Below are positions 4,030 to 41,114 of a DNA stretch of 46,688 nt, piece by piece. Source of the stretch: Candidatus Saganbacteria bacterium (GTDB lineage Bacteria; Margulisbacteria; WOR-1; JAPLLA01); NCBI GenBank assembly GCA_026387795.1, contig JAPLLA010000046.1, positions 1 to 46,688 on the forward strand, written 5' to 3'. Position numbers and translations under genes: made by a program. The notes under the pieces were generated by a model. That model searched no databases and was not told the origin of the DNA. It worked only from the letters and a program-made list of their open reading frames with translations. Position 1 is the stretch's first letter; each line of letters begins with the position of its first letter.

Positions 4030-4151
4030 AACTCTAAATCCGAAATTCTAAACTCTAAATAATATCAAATGATCAAAGCTCTAAAGTTTTAAACATTTGA
4101 ATTTTGATATTGGGATTTGTTTAGGATTTAGAAATTAGGATTTCGAATTTT
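4030..4151. repeat. AT-rich imperfect palindromic intergenic element
   Basis: The 150 bp between lpdA and the radical SAM gene are filled by words such as CTCTAAATCCGAAATTCTAAA and, in opposite sense, GGATTTGTTTAGGATTTAG. The last 39 bp (4113-4151) match a segment inside leuS (15196-15234) at 34 of 39 positions. The element runs into the stop codon of the radical SAM gene (4150-4152). No gene is seen here. Confidence 0.75.
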
Positions 4152-4761
4152 ACTTCTGGTAGTTTTCTTCGTAGTATGGCCGAACGCGGAAATTGACCCC
4201 TAGGTCTGTAGCAATTTGACGGCAGGCATCTTTGTCTACGTTTGGCAGATCAACCACAGTAGCAGTTACTTCGGGTATCTGTTTTTTTGCTTCTTTTATA
4301 AACTCAATAATTGCAGGGTATGCTTTTTGGCTTAAACGAGGGTTGCAGATTGCCTCATAACTGGCTGCATCCGGAGCGTTTAAGCTTACAGAGATGGAAT
4401 TGATCAGCCCTTTTAGCTCAGGAAGGATGTTTTTCTTCCAAAAAAGGTTGGCATGGCCGTTGGTATCAATCCGGATACTAATGTCCGGATGTTTGCTCTT
4501 GAGAGTTTTTGAAACTTCAATTACAGTATCCAAACGAAGAAGAGGTTCACCATAGCCGCAAAATACGACTTCTTGATACTTGGAAGGATCTCCGATTGCA
4601 TCCAATATCTCTTGTGTAGAGGGTTCCTTTTCCAGCCATAGCGGGCTTTCATTATTAAATTGCCGCTTTTTATACCGGATGCAGAAATTGCACTCGTTTG
4701 TACAGCGGTTTGTAATATTTAAGTATAAAGATTTGCCGATTTGGTAAGCAATGGAATTCAT
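4150..4761 (-). CDS. TatD-associated radical SAM protein
   Basis: Short radical SAM protein (203 residues) of the family usually encoded beside a TatD-type nuclease. Cluster cysteines are C20, C24 and C27 in CTNECNFC; VVFCGYGEPLLR is the family's GGEP-like motif and SISVSLNAPDAASYE follows. There is no SPASM or other auxiliary-cluster domain, so this is a minimal fold whose substrate is not known. No TatD gene is visible next to it; instead the HEPN gene stops 13 bp upstream, so the two are probably co-transcribed. Start ATG at 4761. The stop codon lies in the AT-rich repeat element, which may have trimmed or replaced the original 3' end (inference). Confidence 0.85.
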   Translation of the reverse strand: MNSIAYQIGKSLYLNITNRCTNECNFCIRYKKRQFNNESPLWLEKEPSTQEILDAIGDPSKYQEVVFCGYGEPLLRLDTVIEVSKTLKSKHPDISIRIDTNGHANLFWKKNILPELKGLINSISVSLNAPDAASYEAICNPRLSQKAYPAIIEFIKEAKKQIPEVTATVVDLPNVDKDACRQIATDLGVNFRVRPYYEENYQK

Positions 4762-4774
4762 AAATATGGTATTT

Positions 4775-5182
4775 CTAGGAAAGGATGGAATTGACCCATT
4801 TGAAAAATCTTTCTGCGTGCAAGATTATTTCTGCGGCTTCATTTTTGCCGAATTTTTTCCCTTCATATTCCACGAGGTTCTTTTTCTTTATTACCCTTAA
4901 GAAATGGCTGGCTCCGGTTTTGACATCTTTGAGATCGGAGAGCGATTGCAAAAGAGTTACAGCATCATCGTGATTATGGCTGGTACATCTGATTCCTTTT
5001 GACCAGATAGTTAAAGCGTCGTTAGCAGAAATACAGCAGTGTACGGCTTCCAAAGCAGCAGAATTCCAGCGTTCCTCCCTAAAACAATCCATCATGGAAT
5101 CATAAAATTCCGCAGCTTTAGAAAAATAACCGAGGGATTCATTTTTATTTACGTTTTTATGTAGAATGTTTTTTGCTGCCAA
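4775..5182 (-). CDS. HEPN-domain toxin candidate
   Basis: 135-residue all-helical HEPN protein, partner of the adjacent nucleotidyltransferase. The helix RWNSAALEAVHCCISANDAL is typical, and R65 to H71 (RCTSHNH) gives the RX4-6H motif used for RNA cleavage in this superfamily. The best start is TTG at 5182, with AGGAG about 10 nt upstream; the next ATG would remove the first HEPN helix. It overlaps the end of the MNT gene by 26 bp, implying translational coupling. In known HEPN/MNT pairs the HEPN protein is an RNase neutralised by AMPylation from MNT; whether this pair works so is inferred. Confidence 0.85.
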   Translation of the reverse strand: MAAKNILHKNVNKNESLGYFSKAAEFYDSMMDCFREERWNSAALEAVHCCISANDALTIWSKGIRCTSHNHDDAVTLLQSLSDLKDVKTGASHFLRVIKKKNLVEYEGKKFGKNEAAEIILHAERFFKWVNSILS

Positions 5183-5795
5183 TTTTTATTAGCTCCTGGG
5201 GGGATTTGCCTGCGATGGGGGCCCCAATCCGTAAGACCCCTAGAAGGAAAGGGTCCCTTTTTCTTAGCCTGGAACGAAAATTATCCAGTGAAAGGACAAC
5301 GGGAGAGAGCATGTTCCCAAACTGATGTATGAAGTCAAATTCAAGCAGGGATAAGGCATTTTCGATTTCTTTTTTTCTCTTTTTGTTTGAAGCCACAATT
5401 AGAATGTCCACGTCAGAAGCAGCCCTTTCTTTCCCCCCGGCCACGCTCCCAAATAATACTACGGAAATGAAAGGGGTTTTTATCCTTTTTGTCAGGGACA
5501 GAGCCATAAGTTCAATTAGCCGGTTTTCTCTTTCAAAGAGAGGAGCCAGTAGTTCTTTTACCAATAGATTTTTGTCGTTTATTTTATACAAAACCCCGCT
5601 GTTGGTGTTGTTTAACAAGATTACTCCTTGCTGGGCAAGTTCTTTCAGGGCGCGGTGGCAGGTCTTATGGTCCATTTTTATAGCCCGAGCAATTTCCCTG
5701 CCCATAGATTCCAGCCGGGTTTTAAGCAAAAACCGCAAGATTTTTACTTTTGATTTTTGAGCAAGCAAGTTTTCGAGTGTATCTTTGAATTTCAT
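5157..5795 (-). CDS. HTH-fused minimal nucleotidyltransferase (MNT antitoxin)
   Basis: 212 residues. Residues 15-75 are a winged helix (GREIARAIKMDHKTCHRAL) and residues about 108-200 a pol-beta-type minimal nucleotidyltransferase with GSVAGG (116-121) and the metal-binding pair D128/D130 in SDVDILI. Such MNT proteins modify and silence their HEPN partner. Fusion to an HTH suggests the protein also represses its own operon, which agrees with the paired GGGG-N8-CCCC sites between promoter and start codon. First gene of the MNT-HEPN-radical SAM unit. Start ATG at 5795. Confidence 0.88.
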   Translation of the reverse strand: MKFKDTLENLLAQKSKVKILRFLLKTRLESMGREIARAIKMDHKTCHRALKELAQQGVILLNNTNSGVLYKINDKNLLVKELLAPLFERENRLIELMALSLTKRIKTPFISVVLFGSVAGGKERAASDVDILIVASNKKRKKEIENALSLLEFDFIHQFGNMLSPVVLSLDNFRSRLRKRDPFLLGVLRIGAPIAGKSPQELIKIGSKKHST

Positions 5796-5929: not shown

Positions 5930-6466
5930 ATGGATCTACTCGATTTAGACTTATCTGCAGAGGAGAGTATCAAAAAATTTAAGATTACACGACTGGTGGG
6001 TTGCAGCATGTATCCTACTTTGCAGGAGAACGATGTGCTTTTTTTGGATACCCCTCCGGTAGAAAACATTCAGGTTGGGGACATGATTGTTTTTAAGGGG
6101 CAGGATAAAACTATTTGCCACCGCGTGGTTGGCAAGTTCATGAAAAAGGGGAAGCTCTTTTTCAAGGAAAAAGGGGACAATTGTTTGGGAGGAAGTATAA
6201 TTTCTGCGGACCTGGTTATTGCCAAGGTCAAAGAATACTACCGCGGCAGGCAGAAAATCCAAGCATCAAACTACTGGCTGGCAAGGTTCAACGTTTTAAT
6301 GGCTTTTGTCTTCAAAGGGATTGCGTTGGGCAAAAGCCTTAAAAAGAGATTGATTCCAAATGTTAGAATCGGGCGCTTTTTTAAGCCAATTTTTCGGAGT
6401 ATTGCAAAACTGAATCGTATTGGGAATAGGGCGATTAATTCAAGCAATTTAAAGAAACGCTCCTAA
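5930..6466 (+). CDS. S26-type signal peptidase with Ser-His active site
   Basis: 178-residue S24/S26 peptidase. Serine nucleophile S26 in GCSMYPT, then GDMIVFKG and H64 in ICHRVVGK. Histidine at the position of the catalytic lysine is typical of the archaeal/ER (SipW-like) branch, unlike the Ser-Lys LepB encoded at 32764. A hydrophobic stretch near residues 120-135 may anchor it. As the first gene of the peptide-modification locus it is the best candidate for cutting the leader from the precursor (inference). The last 18 codons shared with the remnant at 7915-7981 differ from it almost only at synonymous positions. After the shared part this copy ends differently (SSNLKKRS) because AbiE DNA follows. 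Confidence 0.85.
   Translation: MDLLDLDLSAEESIKKFKITRLVGCSMYPTLQENDVLFLDTPPVENIQVGDMIVFKGQDKTICHRVVGKFMKKGKLFFKEKGDNCLGGSIISADLVIAKVKEYYRGRQKIQASNYWLARFNVLMAFVFKGIALGKSLKKRLIPNVRIGRFFKPIFRSIAKLNRIGNRAINSSNLKKRS
6385..6439 (+). repeat. Direct repeat, left copy (3' end of S26 gene)
   Basis: 55 bp matching 7915-7969 at 48 positions. Five of the six differing codons are synonymous; the sixth is Ile/Leu. The two copies, 1,530 bp apart, bracket the AbiE pair. Confidence 0.9.
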
Positions 6467-6471
6467 GCCGC

Positions 6472-6499
6472 TTGACACAAAAACCGTGCCTGGTATACT
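6472..6499 (+). promoter_or_regulatory. Promoter of the AbiE pair
   Basis: TTGACA (6472-6477), 16 bp, TGG-TATACT (-10 at 6494-6499). The AT-rich near-palindrome TTATTTATTA-AAAG-TAATAATAA (6508-6530) lies between the promoter and the ATG at 6532 and may be the AbiEi operator (inference). No clear Shine-Dalgarno. The promoter lies 6 bp past the S26 stop. Confidence 0.6.
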
Positions 6500-6531
6500 A
6501 ATTTCAGTTATTTATTAAAAGTAATAATAAA

Positions 6532-7131
6532 ATGAAATACAGTCAGCTAAGAAAAAAAATACGTTCCCCAATTTTTAGCCGGCAGGATTTGCGCCTTTCG
6601 GGAGAGAAGATCTTTCCATACCAGCTTTCCCTTTGGCAGAAGAAGGGGTATCTTTTTAAAATCAGAAACGGTCTTTATGTTTTTGCGGATCAGCTTGCGT
6701 GTGTTTTGCCGGAAGAAATTGCGTTCCGCCTTTATTCCCCCAGCTACATTAGTCTTGAGAAGGCTTTATCTGTTTACGGTATAATCCCGGAGATGGTTTA
6801 TGGCATTACTTCGGTGACCCCTAAAACCACGCGGGAATTTAGAAATAAATTCGGGGATTTTACTTATAGGCACATAAAATCAGACTTATTTTTTGGTTAC
6901 CGGGAAGACAAAGATAGGAAATGCTTAATGGCGGAACCGGAAAAGGCCTTGCTGGACTATCTTTATTTTAATTTATCAAAAATAGATCCGTGCGAAGCTA
7001 TAGAAGAATTCAGGTTTAATGTGAAGATAATTAAAAAAGAACTTTCCCGGGCCAAGCTTAAAAAGTATTTGCAATTGTTTAATAACAGAAAAATGAACCA
7101 GGCCATAGGGGCAATTTTTAGAGGGAAGTAG
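6532..7131 (+). CDS. abiEi: AbiEi-family antitoxin
   Basis: 199 residues with an N-terminal winged helix (FSRQDLRLSGEKIFPYQLSLWQ split by the usual turn, then KKGYLFKIRNGLYVF) and the AbiEi core (SPSYISLEKALSVYGIIPE, then EPEKALLDYLYF). AbiEi proteins bind their own promoter and prevent toxicity of AbiEii in type IV toxin-antitoxin systems that can act against phage. The start ATG at 6532 has no clear ribosome site. It is followed after 3 bp by the AbiEii gene. Together they form a self-contained cassette inserted in the RiPP-like operon. Confidence 0.85.
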   Translation: MKYSQLRKKIRSPIFSRQDLRLSGEKIFPYQLSLWQKKGYLFKIRNGLYVFADQLACVLPEEIAFRLYSPSYISLEKALSVYGIIPEMVYGITSVTPKTTREFRNKFGDFTYRHIKSDLFFGYREDKDRKCLMAEPEKALLDYLYFNLSKIDPCEAIEEFRFNVKIIKKELSRAKLKKYLQLFNNRKMNQAIGAIFRGK

Positions 7132-7134
7132 CAT

Positions 7135-7914
7135 ATGCTTACTTTTGACCAAATTAAAGAATACTTTACGCCGGATTTGGCGCAGTTAAATCCCAAGGGG
7201 ATGTTGGTGGAATATCTGCAATATGAATGCCTGGATTCAATTTTTAAGCAAAAGGGGTCAGAAAAGCTAAGCTTCATCGGCGGAACTGCCATTCGCTTAA
7301 TCTATAATTCGCAGCGCTTTTCGGAAGATCTGGATTTTGACAACTTTGGCTTGGATGCTGCGGGACTAGAGCGGTTATTTGACAAGGTATGTAAAGAAAT
7401 AAAGGTAAAGGGGTTTGAGGTTGAATATCGCTTCCTATCCAGAGGGAAAAACTTTCATTGTTATCTTAAGTTTCCTGCTGTTTTACGGCAATATGGCTTG
7501 CCTGCACATCATCAAGAAAAAATTTTGGTTAGCATTGATACTGAGCATAAAACTAGGATCGTTAAGCCGGAAGTTAGGTCCATTAATAAGTTTGGGATAT
7601 TTTGCAATATTATTGTTAACCCCTTGCCTGTGCTTTTGGCGCAAAAATTGCTGGCGATTTTACTTAGAAAAAGGGAAAAGGGCCGCGATTTTTATGATGT
7701 TTCGTTTTTGGGGGGGCTGGCTAAGCCGGATTATTTTTACATTGAACAAGTAACCGGCATGGGAAAAGAAGATTTTAAGGCAAAGCTGTTAAAAAGGTGT
7801 TTGCAGTTTAATTATAAAATTTTAGCCAAGGACGTAGCTCCATTTTTGTTTAATGCGGACCAGAAAAAACGGGTATTGGATTTCGAAGGGGTGATCGGGG
7901 AAATACTGTCTTAG
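7135..7914 (+). CDS. abiEii: AbiEii/AbiGii nucleotidyltransferase toxin
   Basis: 259-residue nucleotidyltransferase-like toxin. FIGGTAIRLIYNSQRFSEDL carries the GG...S active-site pattern and is completed by D65/D67 in EDLDFD. KLLAILLRKREKGRDFYDV is the second conserved AbiEii block, with Lys, Arg and Asp near the expected spacing. AbiEii proteins transfer nucleotides, and characterised relatives modify tRNA acceptor ends; the target here is unknown. The stop codon TAG (7912-7914) directly abuts the duplicated S26 3' end. It is not a normal component of RiPP loci; its placement is best explained by insertion. Confidence 0.88.
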   Translation: MLTFDQIKEYFTPDLAQLNPKGMLVEYLQYECLDSIFKQKGSEKLSFIGGTAIRLIYNSQRFSEDLDFDNFGLDAAGLERLFDKVCKEIKVKGFEVEYRFLSRGKNFHCYLKFPAVLRQYGLPAHHQEKILVSIDTEHKTRIVKPEVRSINKFGIFCNIIVNPLPVLLAQKLLAILLRKREKGRDFYDVSFLGGLAKPDYFYIEQVTGMGKEDFKAKLLKRCLQFNYKILAKDVAPFLFNADQKKRVLDFEGVIGEILS

Positions 7915-7981
7915 GCCAATTTTCCGGAGCATTGCAAAGCTGAACCGGTTGGGGAATAGGGCGATTAATCAGAGGGGGTAA
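7915..7981 (+). pseudogene. Remnant of the 3' end of an S26 peptidase gene
   Basis: Read in the right frame this encodes PIFRSIAKLNRLGNRAINQRG and a TAA at 7979-7981, 4 bp before the PqqD start. It matches the end of the intact S26 gene up to GNRAIN. The remnant's own terminal residues and tight spacing to PqqD look like the original junction. Its GAGGGGG serves as ribosome site for PqqD. Confidence 0.88.
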
Positions 7982-7985
7982 AAAA

Positions 7986-8255
7986 ATGAAAAAGATATTG
8001 GCGAATAAGGATTTTGTTTATAGGGAAGAAGAGGACGAAGCGCTCATTTTTAATCCAGATAATGGAGGGATAAAGATTTTAAATGCTACAGGGAACTTAA
8101 TCTGGAAGCTTTGCGATGGCACCAGAGATAAAGAACAAATTATCCGAGAGCTAATGCAAGCTTTTCCGGATGTGAATAAAAAGGTATTAAAACAGGATCT
8201 GGACGAATTTTTAGCCAAAGCAAAAAAAACCGCCGTGATTAGTTATGTTTCATAG
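7986..8255 (+). CDS. PqqD-like peptide-binding protein (RRE)
   Basis: 89 residues of the PqqD fold: two strands (FVYREEEDEALIFNPDNGG), the conserved LNATGNLIWKLCDGTRDKEQI segment (given here in two parts: LNATGNLIWKLCD and GTRDKEQI), then helices. Such proteins bind the leader of a ribosomally made peptide and present it to radical SAM enzymes. It is directly followed by two such enzymes and a small cysteine-rich gene. The start ATG at 7986 has GAGGGGG 5-6 nt upstream, supplied by the S26 remnant. The C-terminal region is slightly longer than minimal PqqD. Its partner choice between the two enzymes cannot be read from sequence. Confidence 0.88.
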   Translation: MKKILANKDFVYREEEDEALIFNPDNGGIKILNATGNLIWKLCDGTRDKEQIIRELMQAFPDVNKKVLKQDLDEFLAKAKKTAVISYVS

Positions 8256-8308
8256 TTTTGGGTAGTCTTGTCGGACATTAAAGTGGTTTTTACTGGAGAA
8301 AACAACTA

Positions 8309-9412
8309 TTGCAAAAGAGGCTAAAGAATAGGGCTAAGAAAAACAGAATGAGCATTGAACAACAAACTGCCGGGCAAAAAGAGATCTCCTTGTCTACTAT
8401 ACATTTGTTTATTACGGAAGAATGCAACCTTTCTTGCCGGCATTGTTTTGTGCAGAAGAAAAAAGGGGGGGGGCAAAAGCAGCAGCTTTCTTATTGGGAG
8501 ACATTGAAGATCTTGGAACAGGCATTTCAGTGTGGAGTAAAAAGAGTGGTTTTTCTGGGAGGAGAACCGTTTTTGCACCCCTCCTTTTTAAAGATTTTGG
8601 GGCACTTGTCTCATCTCCCCGTTTCTATTGGAATTTCCACGAACGGTTTTTTCGTTAATGATCGTATTTTAGCTGTTCTGAAAAAACTCGGGAAAAAAGT
8701 TGATGTGGCATTTAGCTTAGACGGGGACACTGCCAAAACTCATGATGCCATGAGAGGGGCGGGTAGTTTTGAGATTACAGTGCGCAATTTAATTGAGATG
8801 AAAAAACATCAAGTCAATTGCCAGATTAATACGGTTATTACTCGTTATAATTTTAAAAGCATAGAAGGATTAGCGAGCCTGGCAGAAAAGCTGGGGATAA
8901 AAACAATTACGCTATTGCATTTTGTAAGCAGCGATCCTAAGCAGCGGAAAGAATTTGAGTTGGGGACGGAAGAACATAAATGGTTGTTTAAATTTATGAG
9001 CGACAAAATTCATAGTGGCTGGAAAGGAATGGATATTGTTAGTGGGCCGTTGGCAGCAGGGATGAGGCGTATAGCCAAGTTTTTTGCGGGTGAGAAAATA
9101 GAAAAAAGGGGGGAATTGTTTTTTTGCAATGCGGGATCAAAGAGTTGTGCGGTAAAATCCAATGGGGACGTTCTCCCCTGCGGGCTTTTTTGGGATTATG
9201 TTTTGGGTAATGTAAAAGAGCATCTGTTAAAGGAAATTTTGACTACTTCTCCGGCTCTCCGGAAATTAAGAGCATTGAGAGAGATTAAATTAAAGAAAGA
9301 ATCCGACTGCCAAAAGTGTAATTTTACTGCTTATTGTGATGGCGGCTGTAGGGCATTGGCTTATGCTCGTACAGGGGCTTTAACCGCAAAAAGAGGGTTT
9401 TTCTGTGCATAA
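8309..9412 (+). CDS. Radical SAM/SPASM peptide-modifying enzyme 1
   Basis: 367 residues. Radical SAM cysteines C39, C43, C46 in CNLSCRHC; VVFLGGEPFLHP is the GGEP motif; VDVAFSLDGDTAKTHD is also typical. The C-terminal SPASM region has CNAGSKSCAVKSNGDVLPC and CQKCNFTAYCDGGC for two auxiliary Fe-S clusters. Such enzymes make thioether, C-C or other links in peptides. The start is taken as TTG at 8309 because GGAGA lies 9 nt upstream; the ATG at 8348 has no good ribosome site and also lies before the catalytic core, so the product differs only by 13 residues. It follows PqqD by 53 bp and overlaps the next gene by 8 bp. Confidence 0.9.
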   Translation: MQKRLKNRAKKNRMSIEQQTAGQKEISLSTIHLFITEECNLSCRHCFVQKKKGGGQKQQLSYWETLKILEQAFQCGVKRVVFLGGEPFLHPSFLKILGHLSHLPVSIGISTNGFFVNDRILAVLKKLGKKVDVAFSLDGDTAKTHDAMRGAGSFEITVRNLIEMKKHQVNCQINTVITRYNFKSIEGLASLAEKLGIKTITLLHFVSSDPKQRKEFELGTEEHKWLFKFMSDKIHSGWKGMDIVSGPLAAGMRRIAKFFAGEKIEKRGELFFCNAGSKSCAVKSNGDVLPCGLFWDYVLGNVKEHLLKEILTTSPALRKLRALREIKLKKESDCQKCNFTAYCDGGCRALAYARTGALTAKRGFFCA

Positions 9413-10523
9413 AAAAGATAGCGGTAAAAAACTAAAACAAGGATCCTCTCCCTCCAACAAGACGGCAGAACTTTTTCTTACTTATGATTGCAATTTGCGT
9501 TGCCCGTATTGTTATATCAGGGGTAGAAAAGTGGCCAGAGAAAAGCAAGAACTGCCGTTTGATTTTTGGCGCGCTATTATTGAGACTTTGGCCGAGCATG
9601 ATTTTAGGACTATTCTTTTTAATGGGGGAGAGCCTTTTTATCGGCAGGATTTTGGCGCCCTTTTGGAAATTGCAGAAAAAAAATGCGACAGCATTATTAT
9701 TAATACTAATGGCACAATTATTACCAACAAATTTATAAGGTTAATCAAAAAAAGCCCGCAAAAATTTCGGATAACGGTTAGTTTGGACGGGCCTACACAG
9801 GAATTACACGATTTTACGCGCGGACAGGGAAGCTTTTTAAAAACCTTGAAAATGATTGGCTTATTGTCTGAACATAAGGTTGCTTTTAACATTGCAACGG
9901 TTGTGATGAAACACAATTTGGGCTCATTGAAAGATATACTTGAGCTGGCAGAAACCCGGGGGGCGCAAGAATTGCTTTTTCTTGATTCGATGTCTTCTGT
10001 TTCGGGTTCGAATAAATACTGTTTGGATTACAAGTCTCTTAGTAAGGCACTGTTTACTGTTTTAAAGTTGAGCGCAGTACAGGGAAAGGTGAGCGTGGGA
10101 AAAGGGGGCCTGGTTTCTTTTGCCAAAAAAATAATTAATTGGAATGTTTTACGGACAGCCAATAAGGGGGAGGGGTTTAGTGGCAAGTGTGGCGTGGATT
10201 ACAATAACCTTACTGGTTTTAGGGTAGATCCTTATGGCCGCTTGATGGCATGTCCCCCGTCTTTTAAAAGGACTGGGTTTTATTACGATTTAAAAGTAAG
10301 CCCTTTAAAAAAGCTGCTTCAAAAACAGGGAAAAGGAGAATTTCCTAGTTTTACTTTATTGCCGGATAAAATTCCCGCTGTTTGTGAAGGATGTGAGTAT
10401 ATCAGTGTTTGTTTTAGCGGTTGTCCTCTTTCCCTGAAAAAAAGCTTAAAAATGACTTGTAAATTTTTAAGATCCAAGTATAATTTTTTGTGTAGGAGGG
10501 AAAAATATGAAAAAACAATATGA
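9405..10523 (+). CDS. Radical SAM/SPASM peptide-modifying enzyme 2
   Basis: 372 residues. Cluster cysteines C29, C33, C36 in CNLRCPYC; TILFNGGEPFYR and ITVSLDGPTQELHD follow. The C-terminal SPASM-like cysteines are in CGVDYNNLTGF, MACPP, CEGCEYISVCFSGC and two further cysteines near the end. It is clearly diverged from enzyme 1, so the two probably install different links or act in sequence. Start GTG at 9405 with AGAGGG 7 nt upstream, inside the end of enzyme 1. Its 3' end overlaps the precursor gene by 17 bp, the tightest sign that the small peptide belongs to this operon. Confidence 0.9.
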   Translation: MHKKDSGKKLKQGSSPSNKTAELFLTYDCNLRCPYCYIRGRKVAREKQELPFDFWRAIIETLAEHDFRTILFNGGEPFYRQDFGALLEIAEKKCDSIIINTNGTIITNKFIRLIKKSPQKFRITVSLDGPTQELHDFTRGQGSFLKTLKMIGLLSEHKVAFNIATVVMKHNLGSLKDILELAETRGAQELLFLDSMSSVSGSNKYCLDYKSLSKALFTVLKLSAVQGKVSVGKGGLVSFAKKIINWNVLRTANKGEGFSGKCGVDYNNLTGFRVDPYGRLMACPPSFKRTGFYYDLKVSPLKKLLQKQGKGEFPSFTLLPDKIPAVCEGCEYISVCFSGCPLSLKKSLKMTCKFLRSKYNFLCRREKYEKTI

Positions 10524-10719
10524 AAAGCCGGGAATGGCAGACTTAGAAGTGGGCGTTTCTTTTCTAGAACATTGTACATCAGTTGGAACCAGTAATGCTA
10601 CCGTTTGTGACAATGGTTACCAAGCTGGAGGGTCCGGTTGCGACTGTGGAGGAGCGCCAGCGGTGGGATCACAGACTGCGCCAAGTGCTCCGGGTGATTG
10701 TGAGAGCTGTGGACCATAA
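10507..10719 (+). CDS. Candidate RiPP precursor peptide, six cysteines
   Basis: 70 residues. Residues 1-22 look like a leader: charged, with Y5-E-K-P8, the YxxP pattern known from leaders bound by PqqD-like domains in lasso-peptide loci. The remainder is Gly/Ser/Ala-rich with six cysteines: C23, C34, C45, C47, C65, C68, the first three evenly spaced by 11. GSGCDCGG and GDCESCGP give close pairs. AGGAGGG ends 6 nt before the ATG, the strongest ribosome site in this locus, as expected for a substrate made in excess over its enzymes. No Gly-Gly cleavage site is obvious before C23. No relative is recognised; the precursor role is inferred from size, composition and position. Confidence 0.78.
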   Translation: MKKQYEKPGMADLEVGVSFLEHCTSVGTSNATVCDNGYQAGGSGCDCGGAPAVGSQTAPSAPGDCESCGP

Positions 10720-10853
10720 TAATAAGAGCCGGTTTCTAGTAGCATAATTAGAATGAAAATACTAAGGGAATAGTTTGTTCGGCAGGAAAAGGGTGAAGTC
10801 TGATTTTTGAACAAAGGAAGAGGGCTAATTCAAACAGAACATTCTATTTAAAT

Positions 10854-11726
10854 GTGTTTGATGTAAATATCTCTTTGGAAATGCACAATTTCCCCCTTGG
10901 TGTTTATTCCACAATTGCGGATCTTTTTAGAAATGAAACAGTAAAGAAGCCTCCTCGGAGTACTAAGAATAAGATTGTTTTTGTTTATACCCAAGACTTA
11001 GATGCCACCGTTATTAAAGCTACAAGCCACTTTAAGGCCCCTTTTTATAAAAGCAATTTATATGGGGTAAAGGCTTTTTGTGCCTTTCCCAGGGGGAGGG
11101 GAAGTATTTATTTGGTTTCTTTTAAGGATGCCAGTTTTGCAGTAAGAATGATTGAACACCTAGTAAAGGAAATGTTTGTCAGGTTTTTTATGGATTTTAA
11201 TATTGTTTTTCTGCATGCATCTGCCGTAATGGTTAAAAAAGGGGCATTGCTATTTTTGGCTCCTTCGGGGGGAGGGAAAAGCACTATTTCAGGGTTTTTC
11301 CCGTCGCAAAATATTTTAGCAGATGATGCGGTAGGAGTAAGATTTGAGTCTGGTAATTACCATGTTTTGTCTCCATTTTTCCCAAAACTTGAACTTGGGG
11401 GTTGGGGAGAGGAAAAAGAGAAAAACAATAAGGCCTTTGGATTAAATCCTTTTAGAAAAGAAAAGCTAAGTGCCATTTTTTTTATTCATAAGAGTAAACG
11501 AAACTATTTACAAAAAAAAGATCCAACCCATTGTTTGTTGGTTGCTTTGTGGAAACAAATGTTGCCGGTAACCCTGCTTCCCCGCACAAAAAAGTTTGAT
11601 ATGGAAAACAAACAGAGGCTTTTTAGGTTTTTGAAAGGAATAATACAAGCAGTCCCAGTTTTTGATCTGCATTTTAGAAAAGACAATTCTTTTTTACCGT
11701 TGTTGGACTCAATTGGTTTAGAATGA
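10854..11726 (+). CDS. HPr-kinase-like P-loop protein of the RiPP locus
   Basis: P-loop kinase fold related to the C-terminal domain of HprK: FLHASAVMV, Walker A APSGGGKST (136-144) and LADDAV (155-160). Relatives occur in lasso-peptide and other peptide-modification loci, where some phosphorylate the peptide. The start is uncertain. GTG at 10854 has no ribosome site, while the frame stays open back to a stop at 10794-10796 and encodes a plausible strand (NRTFYLNVFDVNISLE). AAGGGTGA at 10789-10796 would serve a CTG at 10800 or ATT at 10803, both rare. The gene ends one base before the stop of the leuS remnant on the other strand. 10720-10796 holds no recognisable feature. Confidence 0.8.
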   Translation: MFDVNISLEMHNFPLGVYSTIADLFRNETVKKPPRSTKNKIVFVYTQDLDATVIKATSHFKAPFYKSNLYGVKAFCAFPRGRGSIYLVSFKDASFAVRMIEHLVKEMFVRFFMDFNIVFLHASAVMVKKGALLFLAPSGGGKSTISGFFPSQNILADDAVGVRFESGNYHVLSPFFPKLELGGWGEEKEKNNKAFGLNPFRKEKLSAIFFIHKSKRNYLQKKDPTHCLLVALWKQMLPVTLLPRTKKFDMENKQRLFRFLKGIIQAVPVFDLHFRKDNSFLPLLDSIGLE

Positions 11727-11727
11727 A

Positions 11728-11776
11728 CTACGTTATAACCACATTCACCAGCTTGTTCGGCACATAAACCACTTTT
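11728..11776 (-). pseudogene. leuS: Remnant of the leuS 3' end
   Basis: On the minus strand it encodes [15 protein letters not shown] and stop TAG, matching [15 protein letters not shown]-stop of the intact leuS. 11734-11776 matches 13434-13476 at 41 of 43 positions; both differences are synonymous valine changes. It lies 1,700 bp from the intact 3' end and one base past the HprK-like stop, suggesting the two genes once met tail to tail here. Confidence 0.88.
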
Positions 11777-11779
11777 GGA

Positions 11780-11818
11780 CCCCGACTATTTTGCTTTAGT
11801 AATGCAAATTGGTCGGGG
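11780..11818. repeat. Hairpin at the left end of the Fic module
   Basis: CCCCGACTATTTTGC (11780-11794) pairs with GCAAATTGGTCGGGG (11804-11818), 13 of 15 positions, around a 9-nt loop. It begins 4 bases after the leuS remnant homology ends. There is no T-run, so an ordinary intrinsic terminator is doubtful; an end structure of the incoming DNA is possible. Confidence 0.6.
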
Positions 11819-11837
11819 CAGGGCATATAGATTATAC

Positions 11838-11866
11838 TTGTCTGCACCATTTTATTTTGCTACAAT
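11838..11866 (+). promoter_or_regulatory. Promoter of the AbiEi-like/Fic pair
   Basis: TTGTCT (11838-11843), 17 bp, TGC-TACAAT (-10 at 11861-11866). The gene starts at 11916 with GGAGAG as ribosome site. The promoter lies in unique DNA between the leuS remnant and the module, so the module carries its own promoter. Confidence 0.55.
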
Positions 11867-11915
11867 TTATCCAAAAGATATGCGGTAGTTTTATTCAAAA
11901 TATTGGAGAGACAGT

Positions 11916-12602
11916 ATGGCAAGAAAAGTATTAAAACTTACTCAAAAAGCGCTCGAGTTTTGGAAAGATAAGATAAAAAGCGGCAATCGGGTGCTTAGGG
12001 GACGGGATTTTCCCGGTGAATATGTGCGTAAGCTTTTGCAAAAGGAAGGGCTGCTTTTCCCGATTTTAAGGGGCTTGTACCTGTTGAAAAATAAGGGGGA
12101 AGAGGATGAAACCCTGTTTTATCGCTGGTATTGGCTGATGATTGAAAAAATAATGGGGCAGTATGGGGAGTGGTCGATTGAGAAAGAATCTGCCTTGGCC
12201 CTATACTTGGGCAGGGAAACCATCCCACAAAGGATTAAGGTCCGCATATCAAGAAATGTAAAATATGTACAACTGCTTCCTTTTGGCCTTGAATTGCAAA
12301 TCCGTCCGGATCCCTCTTTTGAGGAAAAAACCAGACGGGAGTGGAAAATTGAGGGGACAATGGTATATGTAGATATCCCGGAAAAAGTCCTTTTTGGGCT
12401 GCATAAAAGGAATGGGGTTGACTTTAAGGCATTTATTAAGGGGATGAAATTTGACCGGAGGTTCCTGGAGGTTTTGTATGCGGATGCCCCGAAACCGGTA
12501 GTGGCGCAGGAGTTGATTAAATTTGCATCTGAAGCAGGCGAAGCAGAGCTTGCCTTAGTATTGAGAAAAATTGTTAAGGAGAATACAATCTACAGATTAT
12601 GA
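11916..12602 (+). CDS. AbiEi-like antitoxin-type transcription regulator
   Basis: 228 residues resembling the AbiEi family: an N-terminal winged helix (VLRGRDFPGEYVRKLLQKEG then LLFPILRGLYLL), followed by WSIEKESALALYLGRETIP and VYVDIPEKVLFGLH. It is distinct from the AbiEi at 6532. AbiEi proteins normally pair with AbiEii nucleotidyltransferases; here the next gene, overlapping by 4 bp, is a Fic protein. The regulator may therefore act as repressor and antitoxin for Fic (inference). Start ATG at 11916, GGAGAG 6 nt upstream. Family assignment rests on overall pattern rather than a single decisive motif. Confidence 0.68.
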   Translation: MARKVLKLTQKALEFWKDKIKSGNRVLRGRDFPGEYVRKLLQKEGLLFPILRGLYLLKNKGEEDETLFYRWYWLMIEKIMGQYGEWSIEKESALALYLGRETIPQRIKVRISRNVKYVQLLPFGLELQIRPDPSFEEKTRREWKIEGTMVYVDIPEKVLFGLHKRNGVDFKAFIKGMKFDRRFLEVLYADAPKPVVAQELIKFASEAGEAELALVLRKIVKENTIYRL

Positions 12603-13375
12603 AAAAGAATGCTTGGATAATTAGACAAGAAGAAGAGCTAATGGCCTTTAGCGAAATAATAGGCGGAGTGCTAAAAGAAGAGATAAACGCCATAAAAAAG
12701 CATCCGCTGGAAAAAATTCTGGAAATGGCCGTGGCACGAAAAAAGTATGACGTTTACCACTCTACCACTATTGAGGGGTATAGCATTACCCCCGAGGAAG
12801 TGGAAGCGGTTATTTTGGGAAAAAGCTTAAAAGATGAAGGTTTTGAAAAACTGCGCAACAAAATGGCGATTTTGGGGCACGCGCAAGCTTTTGACTATGT
12901 GCTTAAGTGCATTAAAAAAGATTTTAAGAGGCCTAAAATAACAGACGAATTTATTGCAGACATTTATTTTCAGCTTTTTAAGCCTTCGGTAGATGCCAAA
13001 ATAATTGACCGGTTCGATTTGCTTGGTTACCGCAGGATCAAGGTGTATTTGCGCGGTAGCCGTTATGTCCCGCCCAGCTTTGAAAAGGTGCCGGATTTGA
13101 TGGATAATTTTATCCTTTCTTTGAATAAGATGGGAGATTCTTTGGTTAAGGCGATTTTAAGCCATTATTATTTTGTAACCATCCATCCCTATCAGGATGG
13201 GAACGGCAGATGCGGCCGCTTGCTTATGAACTATTTTCTTGCAGCTTCTGGGTACCTGTGGATTACAATTACTGCGGACGAAAGAGAAGCCTATTTCAGG
13301 GCATTGCAGGCAGGGCAATTAGACGGCAATATCCTTCCTTTTGCAAAATTAATTATTTCTCTTTTGCGGAAGTAG
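12599..13375 (+). CDS. Fic-domain AMP-transferase
   Basis: 258 residues. The catalytic motif HPYQDGNGRCGR starts at H196 (HPFxDGNGRxxR); Fic proteins transfer AMP or related groups to target hydroxyls. An N-terminal STTIEG (55-60) fits the inhibitory (S/T)xxxE(G/N) helix, so the protein is probably held inactive by its own E59, making it a class II type. This raises the question of why an AbiEi-like partner is needed. A flap segment is at RGSRYVPPSFEKVP. The start overlaps the regulator's stop by 4 bp. It is convergent with leuS, with 52 bp between stops; those 52 bp hold only a small TGCC/GGCA hairpin. Confidence 0.92.
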   Translation: MKKNAWIIRQEEELMAFSEIIGGVLKEEINAIKKHPLEKILEMAVARKKYDVYHSTTIEGYSITPEEVEAVILGKSLKDEGFEKLRNKMAILGHAQAFDYVLKCIKKDFKRPKITDEFIADIYFQLFKPSVDAKIIDRFDLLGYRRIKVYLRGSRYVPPSFEKVPDLMDNFILSLNKMGDSLVKAILSHYYFVTIHPYQDGNGRCGRLLMNYFLAASGYLWITITADEREAYFRALQAGQLDGNILPFAKLIISLLRK

Positions 13376-13427: not shown

Positions 13428-15929
13428 CTATTTTATTACCACATTCACCAGCTTGTTCGGCACATAAACTACTTTTACAATCTGCTTTCCTGCAAGCGAA
13501 GACTTAACTTTTTCCAGCGCCATGGCTTCATCTTTAATCTTTAGTTCCGGTGTTCCCGGAGCAACTATCAGCCTATCTCTTAGTTTTCCGTTTATTTGCA
13601 CTGGAATGGTTAACATCTCGTCTTTTGCCAGCTCCGGATCAAACTTTGGCCAAGGCTGTTTATGAATACTTTCTTTGTTGCCGAGCTGTTGCCACAATTC
13701 CTCGGTCATGTGAGGGGCGAAAGGGGACAACATGACGAGCAAATGACAAATGACAAATGACAAATGACAAATGGAGGAAGGATTATCTTTATATTCGTAA
13801 GCGGTATTTGTAAGCTCCATTAGTCTGGCAATAGCGGTGTTAAAAGAGAAACTTTCAATGTCTGCCGTAACAGCTTTAATTGTCTTATGTGCTTTTCTTA
13901 ATAGTTCCGAATTTGAATTTTGGTCAGTTGAATTTGTTTCGAGTTTAGAATTTAGGATTTCGGATTTCTCTGTTACCAGTCTCCATACTCTATTTAGGAA
14001 TCTCGATGACCCTTCCACTCCCTTATCCGACCACTCCAGCTCCTTCTCCGGCGGTGAAGCGAATAAGATAAACAAGCGAGCTGTATCTGCCCCAAATTTA
14101 GAGATGATCTCATCTGGATCCACCACATTTCCCTTTGACTTGCTCATCTTTGCCCCGTCTTTAATTACCATCCCTTGAGTTAATAGGTTGGTGAAGGGCT
14201 CTTTGAAATTAATTAGGCCTAAATCGTTTAATACTTTTGTAAAAAACCTGGAGTAGAGGAGATGTAGAACGGCATGTTCTATTCCGCCAATGTATTGATC
14301 AACAGGAAGCCAGTGGTTGGCAAGTTTAGACTCGAATGGTTTCTGGTTATTGCGCGCATCCGAATATCTAAGGTAATACCAAGAAGAACAAATAAAAGTA
14401 TCCATGGTATCTGTTTCTCTTTTTGCCGATCCTCCGCATTTAGGACACTTTGCTTCAAGAAAAGATTTGGAAGTTGTTAGAGGAGAAGCTCCTTTTCCTG
14501 TAAACTCAACATCCCGAGGAAGTTTTACAGGCAAATCTTTTTCCGGCACAGGTACTACTCCGCATTTTTCGCAGTAAAGCATTGGAATTGGAGCCCCCCA
14601 GTATCTTTGCCTGGAAATAAGCCAATCCCGAAGTTTGAAATTTACTTTCCATTCACCAACGCCTTTTGAAACCAGCCAGTCCCCGATGTTTTTTAATGCT
14701 TCGAAACTTTTCTGCCTATTGAACTGCGCAGAATTTACCATGATTCCTTCATCTACAAAAGCTTCCTTCATCTCTTTGGTATCAAGACTGGTCCCTTCGG
14801 GCTGGATCACGACTTTTAGCGGAAGGTTGTATTTCTTAGCAAACTCAAAATCCCTTTGATCGTGGGTTGGGACTGCCATCACAGCTCCTGTACCATATCC
14901 CATCAAAACATAATCCGAAATCCAGATCGGTATCTCCTCATTGGTTGCAGGATTAATGGCATATGCTCCTGTAAAAGCCCCATCTTTTTCGGTTTTTGTG
15001 GTCCTCTCACGCGTAGATTCTTTTTTTACTTTCTCAACGTAAGCTTTAATCTCTTTTTCCTGCGGTGTTCCTTTGGTCAGCTCAGAAACCAGAGGATGCT
15101 CAGGGGCTAAAGTCATGTATGTGACGCCGAAGAGGGTGTCGGGTCTAGTTGTATATACAGATAATTCTTGGTTTGGATTTTGGATTTTGGATTTTGGATT
15201 TGTTTCGGATTTCGGATTTCGGATTTCGAATTTTATTTGTACCCCTTCCGACCTCCCAATCCAATTCTCCTGCATGGTCCGGACTTTTTCCGGCCAGCCG
15301 GATAGAAGAGATATATCATCCAGTAGTTTTTGTGCGTAATCCGTGATTTTGAAGAACCACTGCTCAAGCGGTTTTTCTTCTACTTCAGATTCGCATCTCC
15401 AGCACTTGCCTTCTTTTACTTGTTCGTTGGCAAGCACTGTTTCACAGCCCGGGCACCAATTAACCACTGCTTTTTTGCGGTACGCGAGTCCTTTTTCGTA
15501 GAATTTAAGGAATATCCACTGTGTCCATTTGTAGTATTCTTCTCTGGAAGTATTAATTTCGCGATCCCAGTTATAACTGATCCCAAGGGCTTTAAGTTGC
15601 AATGTCATCCGGTCAATACACTTTTGTGTCCACTCGGAAGGATGAACTTTGTTTTTAATTGCCGCGTTTTCTGCAGGAAGTCCAAACGCGTCCCAGCCAA
15701 TTGGGTGGAGCACCGCAAAGCCCTGCATTCTTTTATATCTTGCTACTACATCACCAATAGCGTAATTGCGTACGTGGCCCATGTGTAGGTTTCCGGAGGG
15801 GTAGGGGAACATGACCAAAGCATAGAATTTTTCCCTGGGATCATCATCTGCTACTCTGTAGAGATGAGATTTTTCCCAAGACGCTTGCCACTTTGCTTCG
15901 ATCTCTTTTGGGTCAAAAGCTTCGGACAT
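13428..15929 (-). CDS. leuS: Leucyl-tRNA synthetase with repeat-encoded insertions
   Basis: Class I synthetase charging tRNA-Leu, 833 residues. HIGH motif in [14 protein letters not shown]; zinc-type cysteines in CPGCE and CWRC; editing-domain start [20 protein letters not shown] in [16 protein letters not shown]; anticodon-binding C-terminus. Three short segments do not fit the family and coincide with repeats in the [23 protein letters not shown] just before the editing domain (15172-15234), [11 protein letters not shown] between catalytic and anticodon domains (13930-13968), and [14 protein letters not shown] (13741-13773). All keep the frame, so the gene looks functional. It starts 2 bp after the ilvC stop and is the last gene of the ilv operon. 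A copy of its 3' end lies at 11728-11776. Confidence 0.96.
13741..13773 (+). repeat. Heptamer array inside leuS
   Basis: Four and a half units of AAATGAC read on the plus strand, in frame within leuS. A change of one 7-bp unit would shift the frame. Confidence 0.9.
13930..13968 (+). repeat. Intergenic-type mini-repeat inside leuS, site 2
   Basis: 39 bp matching the leuS segment at 15196-15234 at 31 positions and of the same type as 4113-4151. It encodes the linker [11 protein letters not shown]. Confidence 0.8.
15172..15234 (+). repeat. Heptamer array and mini-repeat inside leuS, site 1
   Basis: Units of GGATTTT (three and a part) followed by GTTT and units of CGGATTT (three). The last 39 bp match the intergenic element at 4113-4151 at 34 positions. 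Encodes the extra [20 protein letters not shown] of the synthetase. Confidence 0.88.
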
Positions 15930-26899: not shown

Positions 26900-27934
26900 A
26901 TGCTTAGATATTTAACAGCAGGCGAATCACACGGTAAAGCTTTGGTTGCAATTTTAGACGGTTGCCCCGCAAACCTTCCTCTTTCCGAAAAAGATATTGT
27001 TCCTGACCTTGCCAGGCGGCAAACCGGTTATGGCCGCGGCGGAAGAATGAAAATAGAAAAAGACAATGCGGAAATTCTTTCAGGGGTCAGAAAAGGTTTA
27101 ACCATTGGCAGCCCGATTGCTCTTTATATCCCCAATCGCAGCACGGAGTTTTTTAATATTCCTATTACCCAGCTTAGGCCGGGACATGCGGACCTTGCAG
27201 GCGCGCTTAAGTATAACCAGGAAGATGTAAGAAATATTTTGGAGCGTGCTTCTGCCAGGGAGACTGCCTGCAGAGTGGCAGTTGGTGCAGTTGCTAAGAA
27301 ATTATTATCTCAGTTTGGGATCAAGCTTTCTTCAGTAGTTTTGGAGATTGCAGGGAAAAAAGATAAGTGGAGCAAAGAAATCGATAAAGCCAGAGAAAAC
27401 GGGGATACGGTAGGGGGAATCTTTGAAGTTCAAGTGACCGGATCTCCGATCGGGCTTGGTTCTTACGCACAATGGGACCTGCGTTTGGACGGCAGGCTTG
27501 CGGGGGCAGTCATGGCCATCCCTGCAATCAAAGGAGTTGAAATTGGTTTGGGCTTTGAAGCTGCAAAGCGTTTCGGATCAGATGTCCACGATGCCATCTT
27601 TTATACTAAAAAGGAAGGCTGGTCCAGAAAAACCAATAATGCAGGAGGTCTTGAGGGAGGAATTACAAACGGAGAACCGATTGTGGTGCGCGCAGCCATG
27701 AAGCCGATTTCCACATTGTTAAAACCATTGGCTTCCGTTGATTTAAAAACCCGCAAATCTTGTTTGGCGCACATCGAACGTTCCGATATTTGCGCAGTGG
27801 AAGCTGCAGCTGTGGTGGGTGAAGCAGTAGTTGCAATTGAGGTGGCAAACGCATTCCTCCAAAAATTTGGCAGCGATAATTTACGCGATATTAAAACAGC
27901 TTTTAATTCCTATCTTAAGAGAGTGGAAGCTTGA
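26900..27934 (+). CDS. aroC: Chorismate synthase
   Basis: Last step of the shikimate pathway, forming chorismate from EPSP with reduced FMN. 344 residues. The N-terminal YLTAGESHGKALVAI is signature 1; RRQTGYGRGGRM is the phosphate-binding region; ERASARETACRVAVGAVAK and GGLEGGITNGEPIVVRAAMKP (read in two parts, GGLEGGITNG and EPIVVRAAMKP) are later signatures. The start fits the leaderless promoter 8 bp upstream. The stop overlaps the TTG start of the ABC transporter by 4 bp. No other shikimate genes are seen here. Confidence 0.97.
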   Translation: MLRYLTAGESHGKALVAILDGCPANLPLSEKDIVPDLARRQTGYGRGGRMKIEKDNAEILSGVRKGLTIGSPIALYIPNRSTEFFNIPITQLRPGHADLAGALKYNQEDVRNILERASARETACRVAVGAVAKKLLSQFGIKLSSVVLEIAGKKDKWSKEIDKARENGDTVGGIFEVQVTGSPIGLGSYAQWDLRLDGRLAGAVMAIPAIKGVEIGLGFEAAKRFGSDVHDAIFYTKKEGWSRKTNNAGGLEGGITNGEPIVVRAAMKPISTLLKPLASVDLKTRKSCLAHIERSDICAVEAAAVVGEAVVAIEVANAFLQKFGSDNLRDIKTAFNSYLKRVEA

Positions 27935-29757
27935 ATTCCATAGCGCATTGGTTTTTTTACCTCAAACAAGGGCTTTCCCGCTTAAAACCCGCGGATCCTA
28001 TTTCCAAAGATAAAAAATCCCTTGATCTTAGGACCGGGTTAAAATTTTTGCGTCCTTTTCTTCTTAAACATTGGCCCAGAGCCATACTTGGAGTAATTGT
28101 GGTTTTGGTAGTTTCTGTTTTTGGCTATGTCCAGCCTTTGGTCACTAAGTTTCTTATTGATAATGTCATGGTTGGCCGCCAGATGCAGTTTTTTATTCCG
28201 GTAATATTATTTTTGGTGGCGGTTAATGTTTTGGAAAAAGTGGGAGGAGCTTTTCAGGGCTTCTTTTTTACTCGTTTTGGACAAGGGGTAGTGCTGGATA
28301 TGCAGACGGACCTGGTTTCACGTTCGCTCCTTTTCCCAAAATCATTTTTTGATAGCAAAGATACCGGATATTTAATGTCCCGCCTTTCGCAGGATGTGCA
28401 GGGGCTGCAGTGGTTTTTTTCTTCTACCCTGGTTTTCATCTTTACCAATATTTTGCGTTTTTTCGTAGGAGCAGTGCTGCTGTTTTATCTGGAATGGAGA
28501 CTTTCTTTGGTGATCTTGGTGGTTTTGCCTTTGATGGTTTTTGGGATCAAGTTTTTTTCCGAGCGTATCCGGGTGCTCAGCCACCACAACATGGAATACC
28601 GTGCCGGAGTAATGCAGAGGATACAGGAAACGCTTTCCTCTATACCTTTGATTAAGTCTTTTGCTTCGGAAAAGCAGGAATCAGACAGGGTTAAAAAAGA
28701 TCTGGAAGAAGTTTACCATAATAGCTTGGAGCAAAATGTAGTCCAGTCTTTTGCGGGGATAGTGATCGGTTCTATTGGTGACGTAGCCAGGCTGATTACC
28801 ATGGTAGCCGGAATTCCTCTGGTAGTAAACGGTGGATGGACCATGGGTTCTTTGTACGCTTTTATTGCATATTTGAGTTACGTTTACGGGCCGGTGCAAT
28901 TTTTAGCCAATACTAATTTTCAATTACAAAATGCACTGGTTTCGCTGGAGAGGGTTTCTTCTTTTTACGACGTTGTGCCCGAAGAGCATAGTAAAGAGGG
29001 GACGCCGCAGATTAAACTTTCGGGAAGGATAGATTTTAAACAAGTCGAGTTTTCCTATGTTCCAGAGGAAAAAGTATTGAAAGGGATTTCTTTTTCCCTT
29101 AAATCCGGAGAGCATGTTGCGATAGTGGGAACAAGCGGAGCGGGCAAAACCACCTTGGCCAGCTTAATCCTCGGTTTTTATGTGCCGGATAAAGGAGAGA
29201 TTTTATTTGACGGCAAAAATGCTTCTTCATACTCGGTGGATCTGCTGCGCCGCAGGATCGGTTATGTTTCGCAAAACACGAGATTGCTTTCAGGCTCCAT
29301 TAAAGAAAATCTTTGCTATGGTAATCCAGAGGCAGAAATAGAAGAGATCGTCAAAGCTGCTAAAACCGCTGGAATTCATGATTTTATCGTAAATTTACCG
29401 GATAAATATGATTCTTTGATTGGAGAAAACGGGGTTTCTCTTTCCGAAGGGCAAAGACAGAGGCTCTCCATTGCCAGGGCATTGATTAAAAAACCGGATA
29501 TCTTGATTTTTGATGAGCCATCTTCTTCGCTGGACAGCTTAACGGAAAGAGCGATATTTGAAATACTTCCAGGCGAGGTTAAAGGTAAGACCATGATTAT
29601 TATTACTCACAAGCTTTATACTGTTATGCATTCCAGTCGGATCCTGGTTATTAAAGATGGAAACCTGGTAGCAGACGGGAAACATCATTCTTTAATGCAG
29701 GAAAACGATTTTTACCGTTCATTGGTTGAAAGCCAGGAGATCATTCCGGAGGAATAA
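27931..29757 (+). CDS. MsbA-like ABC exporter (membrane and ATPase parts fused)
   Basis: 608-residue half-transporter working as a homodimer in the inner membrane. Six membrane helices lie in residues about 45-330 (for example AILGVIVVLVVSVFGYV), followed by an ATPase domain: Walker A GTSGAGKTTL near 400, signature LSEGQRQRLSIARAL near 503, Walker B DILIFDEPSSSLD near 525, and the H-loop in IITHKLYTV. It resembles exporters of lipids, drugs or peptides; the cargo is not readable. TTG start overlapping aroC by 4 bp. It is far from the RiPP-like locus, which has no exporter of its own, so a role there is only a possibility. Confidence 0.92.
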   Translation: MNSIAHWFFYLKQGLSRLKPADPISKDKKSLDLRTGLKFLRPFLLKHWPRAILGVIVVLVVSVFGYVQPLVTKFLIDNVMVGRQMQFFIPVILFLVAVNVLEKVGGAFQGFFFTRFGQGVVLDMQTDLVSRSLLFPKSFFDSKDTGYLMSRLSQDVQGLQWFFSSTLVFIFTNILRFFVGAVLLFYLEWRLSLVILVVLPLMVFGIKFFSERIRVLSHHNMEYRAGVMQRIQETLSSIPLIKSFASEKQESDRVKKDLEEVYHNSLEQNVVQSFAGIVIGSIGDVARLITMVAGIPLVVNGGWTMGSLYAFIAYLSYVYGPVQFLANTNFQLQNALVSLERVSSFYDVVPEEHSKEGTPQIKLSGRIDFKQVEFSYVPEEKVLKGISFSLKSGEHVAIVGTSGAGKTTLASLILGFYVPDKGEILFDGKNASSYSVDLLRRRIGYVSQNTRLLSGSIKENLCYGNPEAEIEEIVKAAKTAGIHDFIVNLPDKYDSLIGENGVSLSEGQRQRLSIARALIKKPDILIFDEPSSSLDSLTERAIFEILPGEVKGKTMIIITHKLYTVMHSSRILVIKDGNLVADGKHHSLMQENDFYRSLVESQEIIPEE

Positions 29758-34015: not shown

Positions 34016-34016
34016 T

Positions 34017-34045
34017 TTGCTGAACCGGGCAAACTGTAGGATAAT
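34017..34045 (+). promoter_or_regulatory. Promoter of giant repeat protein 1
   Basis: TTGCTG (34017-34022), 17 bp, GATAAT (34040-34045), followed by AGGGGGAA and the ATG at 34074. The -35 is weak. Confidence 0.45.
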
Positions 34046-34073
34046 ATTGCCGGCTAATAAAGGGGGAATAAAA

Positions 34074-41048: not shown

Positions 41049-41066
41049 AGCGTTTTTTAATTTGCT

Positions 41067-41096: not shown

Positions 41097-41114
41097 TTTG
41101 TGGGGGATTTAAAT

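Follow-up and report, generated by a model that had tools for sequence, protein, structure and literature searches.

Background

SynChlorMet (SCM) cassettes are represented in NCBIfam by models for ScmA (TIGR04252), ScmC (TIGR04249), ScmD (TIGR04248), ScmE (TIGR04250) and ScmF (TIGR04251), with curated cut-offs of 35, 125, 100, 400 and 400 bits, respectively. A literature search returned no paper naming SynChlorMet, its TIGR numbers or the combination of PqqD with HprK, and no product turned up; the product of an SCM cassette appears to have been characterised by nobody. Here we describe a locus at positions 5930-11726 (plus strand) of a 46,688-nucleotide stretch from Candidatus Saganbacteria bacterium (contig JAPLLA010000046.1), which we call the window. 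Its genes include an S26 peptidase, a PqqD-type peptide chaperone, two radical S-adenosylmethionine (SAM)/SPASM enzymes (SPASM1 and SPASM2), a cysteine-rich precursor peptide and a HprK-like kinase. We put the probability that the locus is a divergent SCM-type cassette for a ribosomally synthesized and post-translationally modified peptide (RiPP) at about 0.78.

Other described systems share parts of this gene set. Biosynthesis of pyrroloquinoline quinone (PQQ; PqqA, PqqD and PqqE) combines PqqD with a SPASM enzyme, and the likeness lies in a trans-acting PqqD that presents a peptide to that enzyme. PQQ membership was rejected by family scans, in which SPASM2 reaches 60 bits against the PqqE model (cut-off 381) and the window shows no PqqA-like peptide. 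GeoRSP (TIGR04302, TIGR04303) also pairs a PqqD chaperone with a radical SAM/SPASM protein. The window proteins attain 48.5 of 100 bits for its PqqD and 129 of 400 bits for its radical SAM protein, the latter with SPASM1 and below the ScmE score of that enzyme (158). SCIFF peptides (ranthipeptides) and sactipeptides resemble the locus in that SPASM enzymes act on Cys-rich cores. SCIFF loci are not known to carry a PqqD/HprK pair, and the SCIFF maturase model TIGR03974 gives SPASM1 76 bits against a cut-off of 425. The SCIFF peptide CteA is reported to carry a thioether between Cys32 and Thr37, five residues apart (PMC8326336), and SCM cores favour Ser or Thr at this same distance from Cys.

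Kinase-bearing lasso peptide loci, such as those of paeninodin and BsfA/BsfK, are similar in their YxxPxL leader, discrete PqqD-like B1 protein and HprK-like kinase (PMC10368454). The YxxPxL motif is a recognition element required by lasso PqqD-type B1 proteins, and the lasso precursor kinases carry an H...GxGKS...DD motif and phosphorylate a Ser of the precursor (PMC10368454, PMC8498205). The PF14907 genes beside several SCM cassettes also recall the lasso N gene. The window locus differs in having radical SAM enzymes and, as an earlier, sequence-only reading of this DNA had held, in having no lasso cyclase. Neither an asparagine-synthetase-like cyclase nor a transglutaminase-like B2 protease was found among the ten genes scanned at 5930-13375, the other window open reading frames (ORFs) having been read by eye only, and lasso membership was rejected on the lack of a match to these families.

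Relationship to SynChlorMet cassettes

The sequence-only reading had described six co-directional genes, several of them overlapping, and all six are present on the plus strand. The SPASM1 and SPASM2 genes overlap by 8 bp (9405-9412), and the SPASM2 and precursor genes by 17 bp (10507-10523). The domains that it assigned (S26, PqqD, two SPASM enzymes, a 70-amino-acid peptide with six Cys, and a HprK-like kinase) stand, whereas its gene list overlooked two genes. The locus has eight genes rather than six, because an AbiEi-like gene and an AbiEii gene sit between S26 and PqqD.

The same reading had taken the locus for an undescribed class, which is not borne out, as its genes are those of the SCM cassette (ScmA/C/D/E/F, TIGR04248-TIGR04252). 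PqqD, two SPASM enzymes, a HprK-fold protein and a precursor with Cys repeats lie together in one neighbourhood, and the likeness extends to a discrete PqqD, a HprK-fold ScmC, a short precursor of the YxxPxL/CxxG type and, often, an S26 peptidase. In the NCBIfam scan, SCM families rank first or nearly first among the named relatives of PqqD and of each SPASM enzyme. Profiles were also built from SCM loci without the window sequence and then searched against the window proteins; these leave-window-out profiles recovered each of SPASM1, PqqD, the HprK-like protein, S26 and the precursor.

A genome-wide scan with SPASM1 alone as query found no relative, and the scan was rerun with an alignment of ScmE (A1). 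Applied to GTDB genomes, this alignment detected SCM-type loci in Aminicenantes, Desulfobacteraceae, other deltaproteobacteria, Omnitrophota, Chloroflexota, Acidobacteriota and Fermentibacterota. Most of twenty SCM-type loci from several phyla, several of which are cut by contig ends, hold PqqD, two SPASM enzymes and a HprK-type gene, often with S26. The peptide type is kept beside the enzymes in relatives of several phyla, and the window enzymes do not group with any known non-peptide SPASM family, SPASM1 leaning towards ScmE. Within the phylum of the window, strong ScmD matches (at least 85 bits) occur in 6 of 74 genomes. The window's own genome (G000) is among those with canonical SCM genes: contig C63 encodes ScmD and ScmE above cut-off together with a second enzyme in the ScmF clade, and contig C7 encodes ScmD and ScmC above cut-off.

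The window locus also differs from these cassettes. All of its scores lie below the cut-offs, and both enzymes are nearer to ScmE, with no canonical ScmF. Only three of the core Cys follow the 10-11 register, and CxC and CxxC pairs occur; in addition, an AbiE pair is inserted and the exporter is not adjacent. Judged by sequence comparison, this is a real, intact and highly divergent SCM-type cassette, and by the curated cut-offs it is not an SCM member.

The two radical SAM/SPASM enzymes

SPASM1 (8309-9412) matches PF04055 and PF13186. The more divergent SPASM2 (9405-10523) matches PF04055 and not PF13186, the SPASM-domain family; nonetheless, it has all seven SPASM cysteines (C262, C283, C327, C330, C336, C340 and C352), which are invariant in 14 sequences. 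Both enzymes conserve these seven and the CxxxCxxC motif (C29/C33/C36; alignment A4), and in SPASM1 neither of the Cys sets for the two auxiliary clusters lacks a member. SPASM1 and SPASM2 score 157.8 and 99.3 bits, respectively, with ScmE (TIGR04250) and 131.7 and 89.2 bits with ScmF, and for SPASM2 the StsB model NF045574 equals ScmE (~99 bits). Local profiles give 241 bits for ScmE versus 168 for ScmF with SPASM1, and 149 versus 116 with SPASM2. In trees, ScmF proteins cluster tightly (100/100) and leave both window enzymes outside. SPASM1 falls near divergent ScmE proteins of genome G020 and locus L063 with modest support, its place on the ScmE side being weakly supported (65/93). Approximately unbiased (AU) tests reject membership in ScmE or ScmF for neither window enzyme. 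In a search of 383 genomes, no other genome has a match to SPASM2 at E<=1e-32. Most likely, both enzymes of the cassette are ScmE-like and a canonical ScmF is absent.

Other RiPP-like loci occur in the same class of bacteria, namely L017 and L016 of the window's genome (contigs C32 and C49) and L042, L043, L050 and L051. These contain PqqD, S26, at least one SPASM enzyme and, in part, HprK-type kinases. Those of their enzymes that were placed in the tree group in a SPASM clade of their own (100/99), and L051 has a different Cys peptide at 11507-11770.

The precursor peptide

Family scans of the 70-amino-acid peptide encoded at 10507-10719 yielded nothing above chance. Small ORFs beside SCM-type cassettes, however, resemble one another in the YxxPx[hydrophobic] motif of their leaders and in cores built of C-x-x-G units. 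When a profile of 18 such precursors, from which the window was excluded, was searched against all 521 window ORFs, 10507-10719 was its sole significant match (E 5.2e-5; the next ORF has 0.2). Under a simple motif rule, 14 ORFs qualify out of 2383 in SCM loci, 1 out of 7521 elsewhere and 1 out of 521 in the window. TIGR04252 matches several of the SCM-type precursors, all of those checked being below its 35-bit cut-off.

Of the 94 core Cys in the 18 peptides, 94% are followed by Gly at position +3, half by Ser or Thr at +5 and two thirds by Ala or Pro at +6. Since such features guided the choice of some of the peptides, these percentages are somewhat too high. Core Cys are mostly spaced by 10 or 11 residues, and related precursors contain as many as a dozen or so CxxG units. 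The window precursor has the leader motif YEKPGM, of the YxxPxL type, and Cys at 23, 34, 45, 47, 65 and 68. The Cys at 23, 34 and 45 are in step with the family register, and the peptide has in addition a CxC (45, 47) and, at its end, a CxxC (65, 68). By analogy with lasso peptides, which provides a lead, the leader motif may be the recognition site for PqqD.

PqqD, the kinase and the S26 peptidase

The PqqD-type protein (7986-8255) matches PF05402 with 58.7 bits and ScmD (TIGR04248) with 43.8 bits, and is recovered by the leave-window-out profile with an E value of 1.5e-26.

The last gene of the locus (10854-11726) has no Pfam match, and a single-sequence search gives weak HprK-family matches only. 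The claim that it encodes a HprK-like kinase is nevertheless upheld by a profile search, the predicted fold and active-site residues. The leave-window-out ScmC-set profile recovers it with an E value of 3.5e-27, and a profile search of the PDB finds phosphoenolpyruvate carboxykinase (PEPCK) and HPr kinase. The predicted model has a mean predicted local distance difference test (pLDDT) score of 66, with parts of the core at ~90, and Foldseek matches it to HprK/P (1kkl, E 2.5e-4) and also to PEPCK. In an alignment, H121, the P-loop APSGGGKST (G141-K142-S143-T144) and D157-D158 correspond to the H...GxGKS...DD motif, which is kept apart from an Ala in place of the first P-loop Gly. On profile and model evidence, then, the protein is of HprK/PEPCK fold. 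As with its lasso counterparts, it may phosphorylate the precursor, which we mention as a lead.

The S26/S24-fold, signal-peptidase-like protein (5930-6466) matches TIGR02228 above cut-off (63.4 bits) and PF00717, and the leave-window-out SCM S26 profile detects it with an E value of 1.5e-24. All ten cassette S26 proteins that were aligned have Ser26 and His64, which fits the Ser-His dyad proposed earlier. In several related leaders the last residues ahead of the first Cys are small (for example YAAAPC and KGAVAC), as in signal-peptidase substrates, and these leader ends suggest that S26 could act as the leader peptidase.

Exporter and accessory genes

The sequence-only reading had reported no dedicated exporter, which is probably wrong. 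An ABC protein (ABC_membrane plus ABC_tran) encoded at 27931-29757 on the plus strand is 51% identical, ungapped over 598 amino acids, to the ABC protein that immediately follows the SCM cassette in an Aminicenantes locus (L053). Homologues (E<=1e-110) occur in 7 of the 74 genomes of the phylum, comprising all 6 with strong ScmD matches and one other. If genomes were independent, this co-occurrence would have a chance of 4e-8, a value that is only a guide because the genomes are related. The ABC gene lies less than 3 kb from an SCM cassette in genomes G015 and G025. The window protein thus probably exports the SCM-type peptide or peptides of this genome.

PF14907 nucleotidyltransferases adjoin four SCM cassettes. 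Inside the SCM cassette of L053, an S26 peptidase is fused to PF14907 (14005-16041), which supports both as cassette components.

Alternative explanations

Several observations weigh against assigning the window locus to the SCM type. In the NCBIfam scan it misses every SCM cut-off, and the ScmA (E<=1) and ScmC models match none of its proteins. PqqD scores slightly higher with GeoRSP than with ScmD (48.5 versus 43.8 bits), no ScmF-clade enzyme is demonstrated in the cassette, and AU tests reject neither placement of SPASM2 (ScmE, p 0.28; ScmF, p 0.15). The ABC gene is 16 kb from the cassette, and the canonical SCM genes elsewhere in the genome are also ones that the ABC protein could serve.

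The missed cut-offs would be expected if the locus were a separate RiPP class that shares general parts (PqqD, SPASM, HprK, S26) with SCM cassettes through convergence or modular exchange, with SPASM2 drawn from another family. The atypical CxC/CxxC core and the equal StsB and ScmE scores of SPASM2 point in the same direction, as does one tree in which SPASM2 paired with the unrelated PqqD-linked enzyme of L064 (Shimodaira-Hasegawa-like approximate likelihood-ratio test, SH-aLRT, 92). However, this pairing came from a quick tree and is gone from the careful one, and we treat it as possible long-branch attraction. In addition, SCM profiles that lack the window find five of its proteins, the precursor included, and the divergent loci G020/L015 and L063 connect SPASM1 to ScmE. 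We therefore regard a separate class as unlikely and a divergent SCM-type cassette as the better description.

The AbiE insertion and neighbouring toxin-antitoxin genes

A direct repeat of 64 bp (84% identity; blastn E 6e-13) links 6376-6439 with 7906-7969, and both copies encode the C-terminus of S26 (PIFRSIAKLNR-GNRAIN). Between them lie an AbiEi-like antitoxin gene (6532-7131; NF047376, E 4e-10, below cut-off) and an AbiEii nucleotidyltransferase toxin gene (7135-7914; PF08843, 79 bits), both on the plus strand and resembling a type IV toxin-antitoxin pair. The last ~30 codons of S26 are the AbiE-side copy of the duplicated 3' end. The displaced original 3' end (7906-7983), whose frame reads ...PIFRSIAKLNRLGNRAINQRG-stop, has its stop codon 2 bp before the PqqD start. 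In L047 (minus strand), the S26 gene (9803-10369) is directly upstream of PqqD (9486-9764), with nothing intervening. The repeat and this gene order together imply that the order before insertion was S26-PqqD-SPASM1-SPASM2-precursor-HprK, matching the order given by the sequence-only reading. As the repeat indicates, the AbiE pair (6532-7914) is a 1530-bp insertion into the 3' end of the S26 gene that splits the cassette, and it is not part of the RiPP pathway. A role for AbiEii as the RiPP nucleotidyltransferase, analogous to the lasso N gene, was considered and ruled out because it belongs to PF08843 and lies with AbiEi inside the direct repeat, whereas SCM cassettes carry PF14907.

The insertion might suggest that the cassette is decayed or repurposed, having been uncoupled at the S26-PqqD junction and left to drift, and the long branches of both enzymes and the irregular C-terminal half of the core are compatible with this idea. 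Yet every reading frame is intact, the 3' end of S26 has been restored, none of the seven SPASM Cys or of the active-site residues of kinase and peptidase is lost, and the precursor still has its leader motif and, in part, the Cys register, which makes decay improbable. Hardly credible is a small redox cofactor made by the logic of PQQ or mycofactocin in place of a cross-linked mature peptide: PqqD and SPASM are common to PQQ and two enzymes could work in sequence, but there is no PqqA- or MftA-like peptide, related precursors repeat Cys every 10-11 residues in up to about a dozen CxxG units, and the exporter co-occurs.

Toxin-antitoxin-type genes also surround the cassette. At 11916-13375, a Fic-domain protein and its upstream AbiEi-like partner have leuS on one side and a repeat of the leuS 3' end on the other (11728-11776 versus 13428-13476; 49 nucleotides, 92%), an arrangement like that of the AbiE pair at S26. 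A second AbiEi/AbiEii pair in the window's genome (L147, contig C26) is flanked by a 39-nucleotide, 97% direct repeat (1279-1317 and 2873-2911) that is the 3' end of the adjoining small gene. Three toxin-antitoxin-type modules of 1.5-1.7 kb, lacking an integrase, are thus each enclosed by a duplicated tail at the 3' end of a gene. Such a flanking repeat is absent from two other AbiEii loci (L148 and L149). On the minus strand at 4775-5795, a pair judged by eye resembles HEPN plus a nucleotidyltransferase (MNT, with an N-terminal helix-turn-helix), and with AbiE and Fic it makes up a toxin-antitoxin cluster around the cassette.

Elsewhere in the window, two very long repetitive ORFs (2360 and 828 amino acids; 33966-43580) have near-identical starts and cell-surface-like repeats. 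A short dispersed repeat (~57-60 nucleotides, 82%) is found at 4095-4155, 13911-13967 and 15179-15238, and also inside leuS.

Proposed pathway and significance

The sequences show the gene set, its homology to SCM cassettes, a conserved family of precursors, the active-site residues and the co-occurrence of the exporter; from these we infer the chemical steps, their order and the biological role as follows. PqqD would bind the leader of the 70-amino-acid precursor through YEKPGM and present the precursor to both SPASM enzymes. This pair would join core Cys (the 23/34/45 register plus 47, 65 and 68) to residues close by, most likely through thioethers. The kinase of HprK fold would phosphorylate a Ser or Thr of the precursor, the Ser-His S26 peptidase would take off the leader, and the ABC exporter would secrete the product.

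A broader and more tentative proposal is that SCM cassettes, including the one in the window, constitute a RiPP class in which tandem C-x-x-G-x-[ST]-[AP] units are cross-linked at every Cys by the SPASM pair, phosphorylated, further decorated where PF14907 or glycosyltransferases are present, and exported by an ABC protein dedicated to them. The window cassette, with two ScmE-like enzymes and its CxC/CxxC core, would then have a different ring topology. This proposal may well not hold in full.

The analysis widens the SCM precursor family to 18 peptides with a YxxPxL leader and CxxG every 10-11 residues, and adds S26, PF14907 and the exporter as probable SCM components. The window cassette is a far outlier of this group with two ScmE-like enzymes, and it offers a testable set of substrate and enzymes for radical cross-linking and phosphorylation on one peptide.

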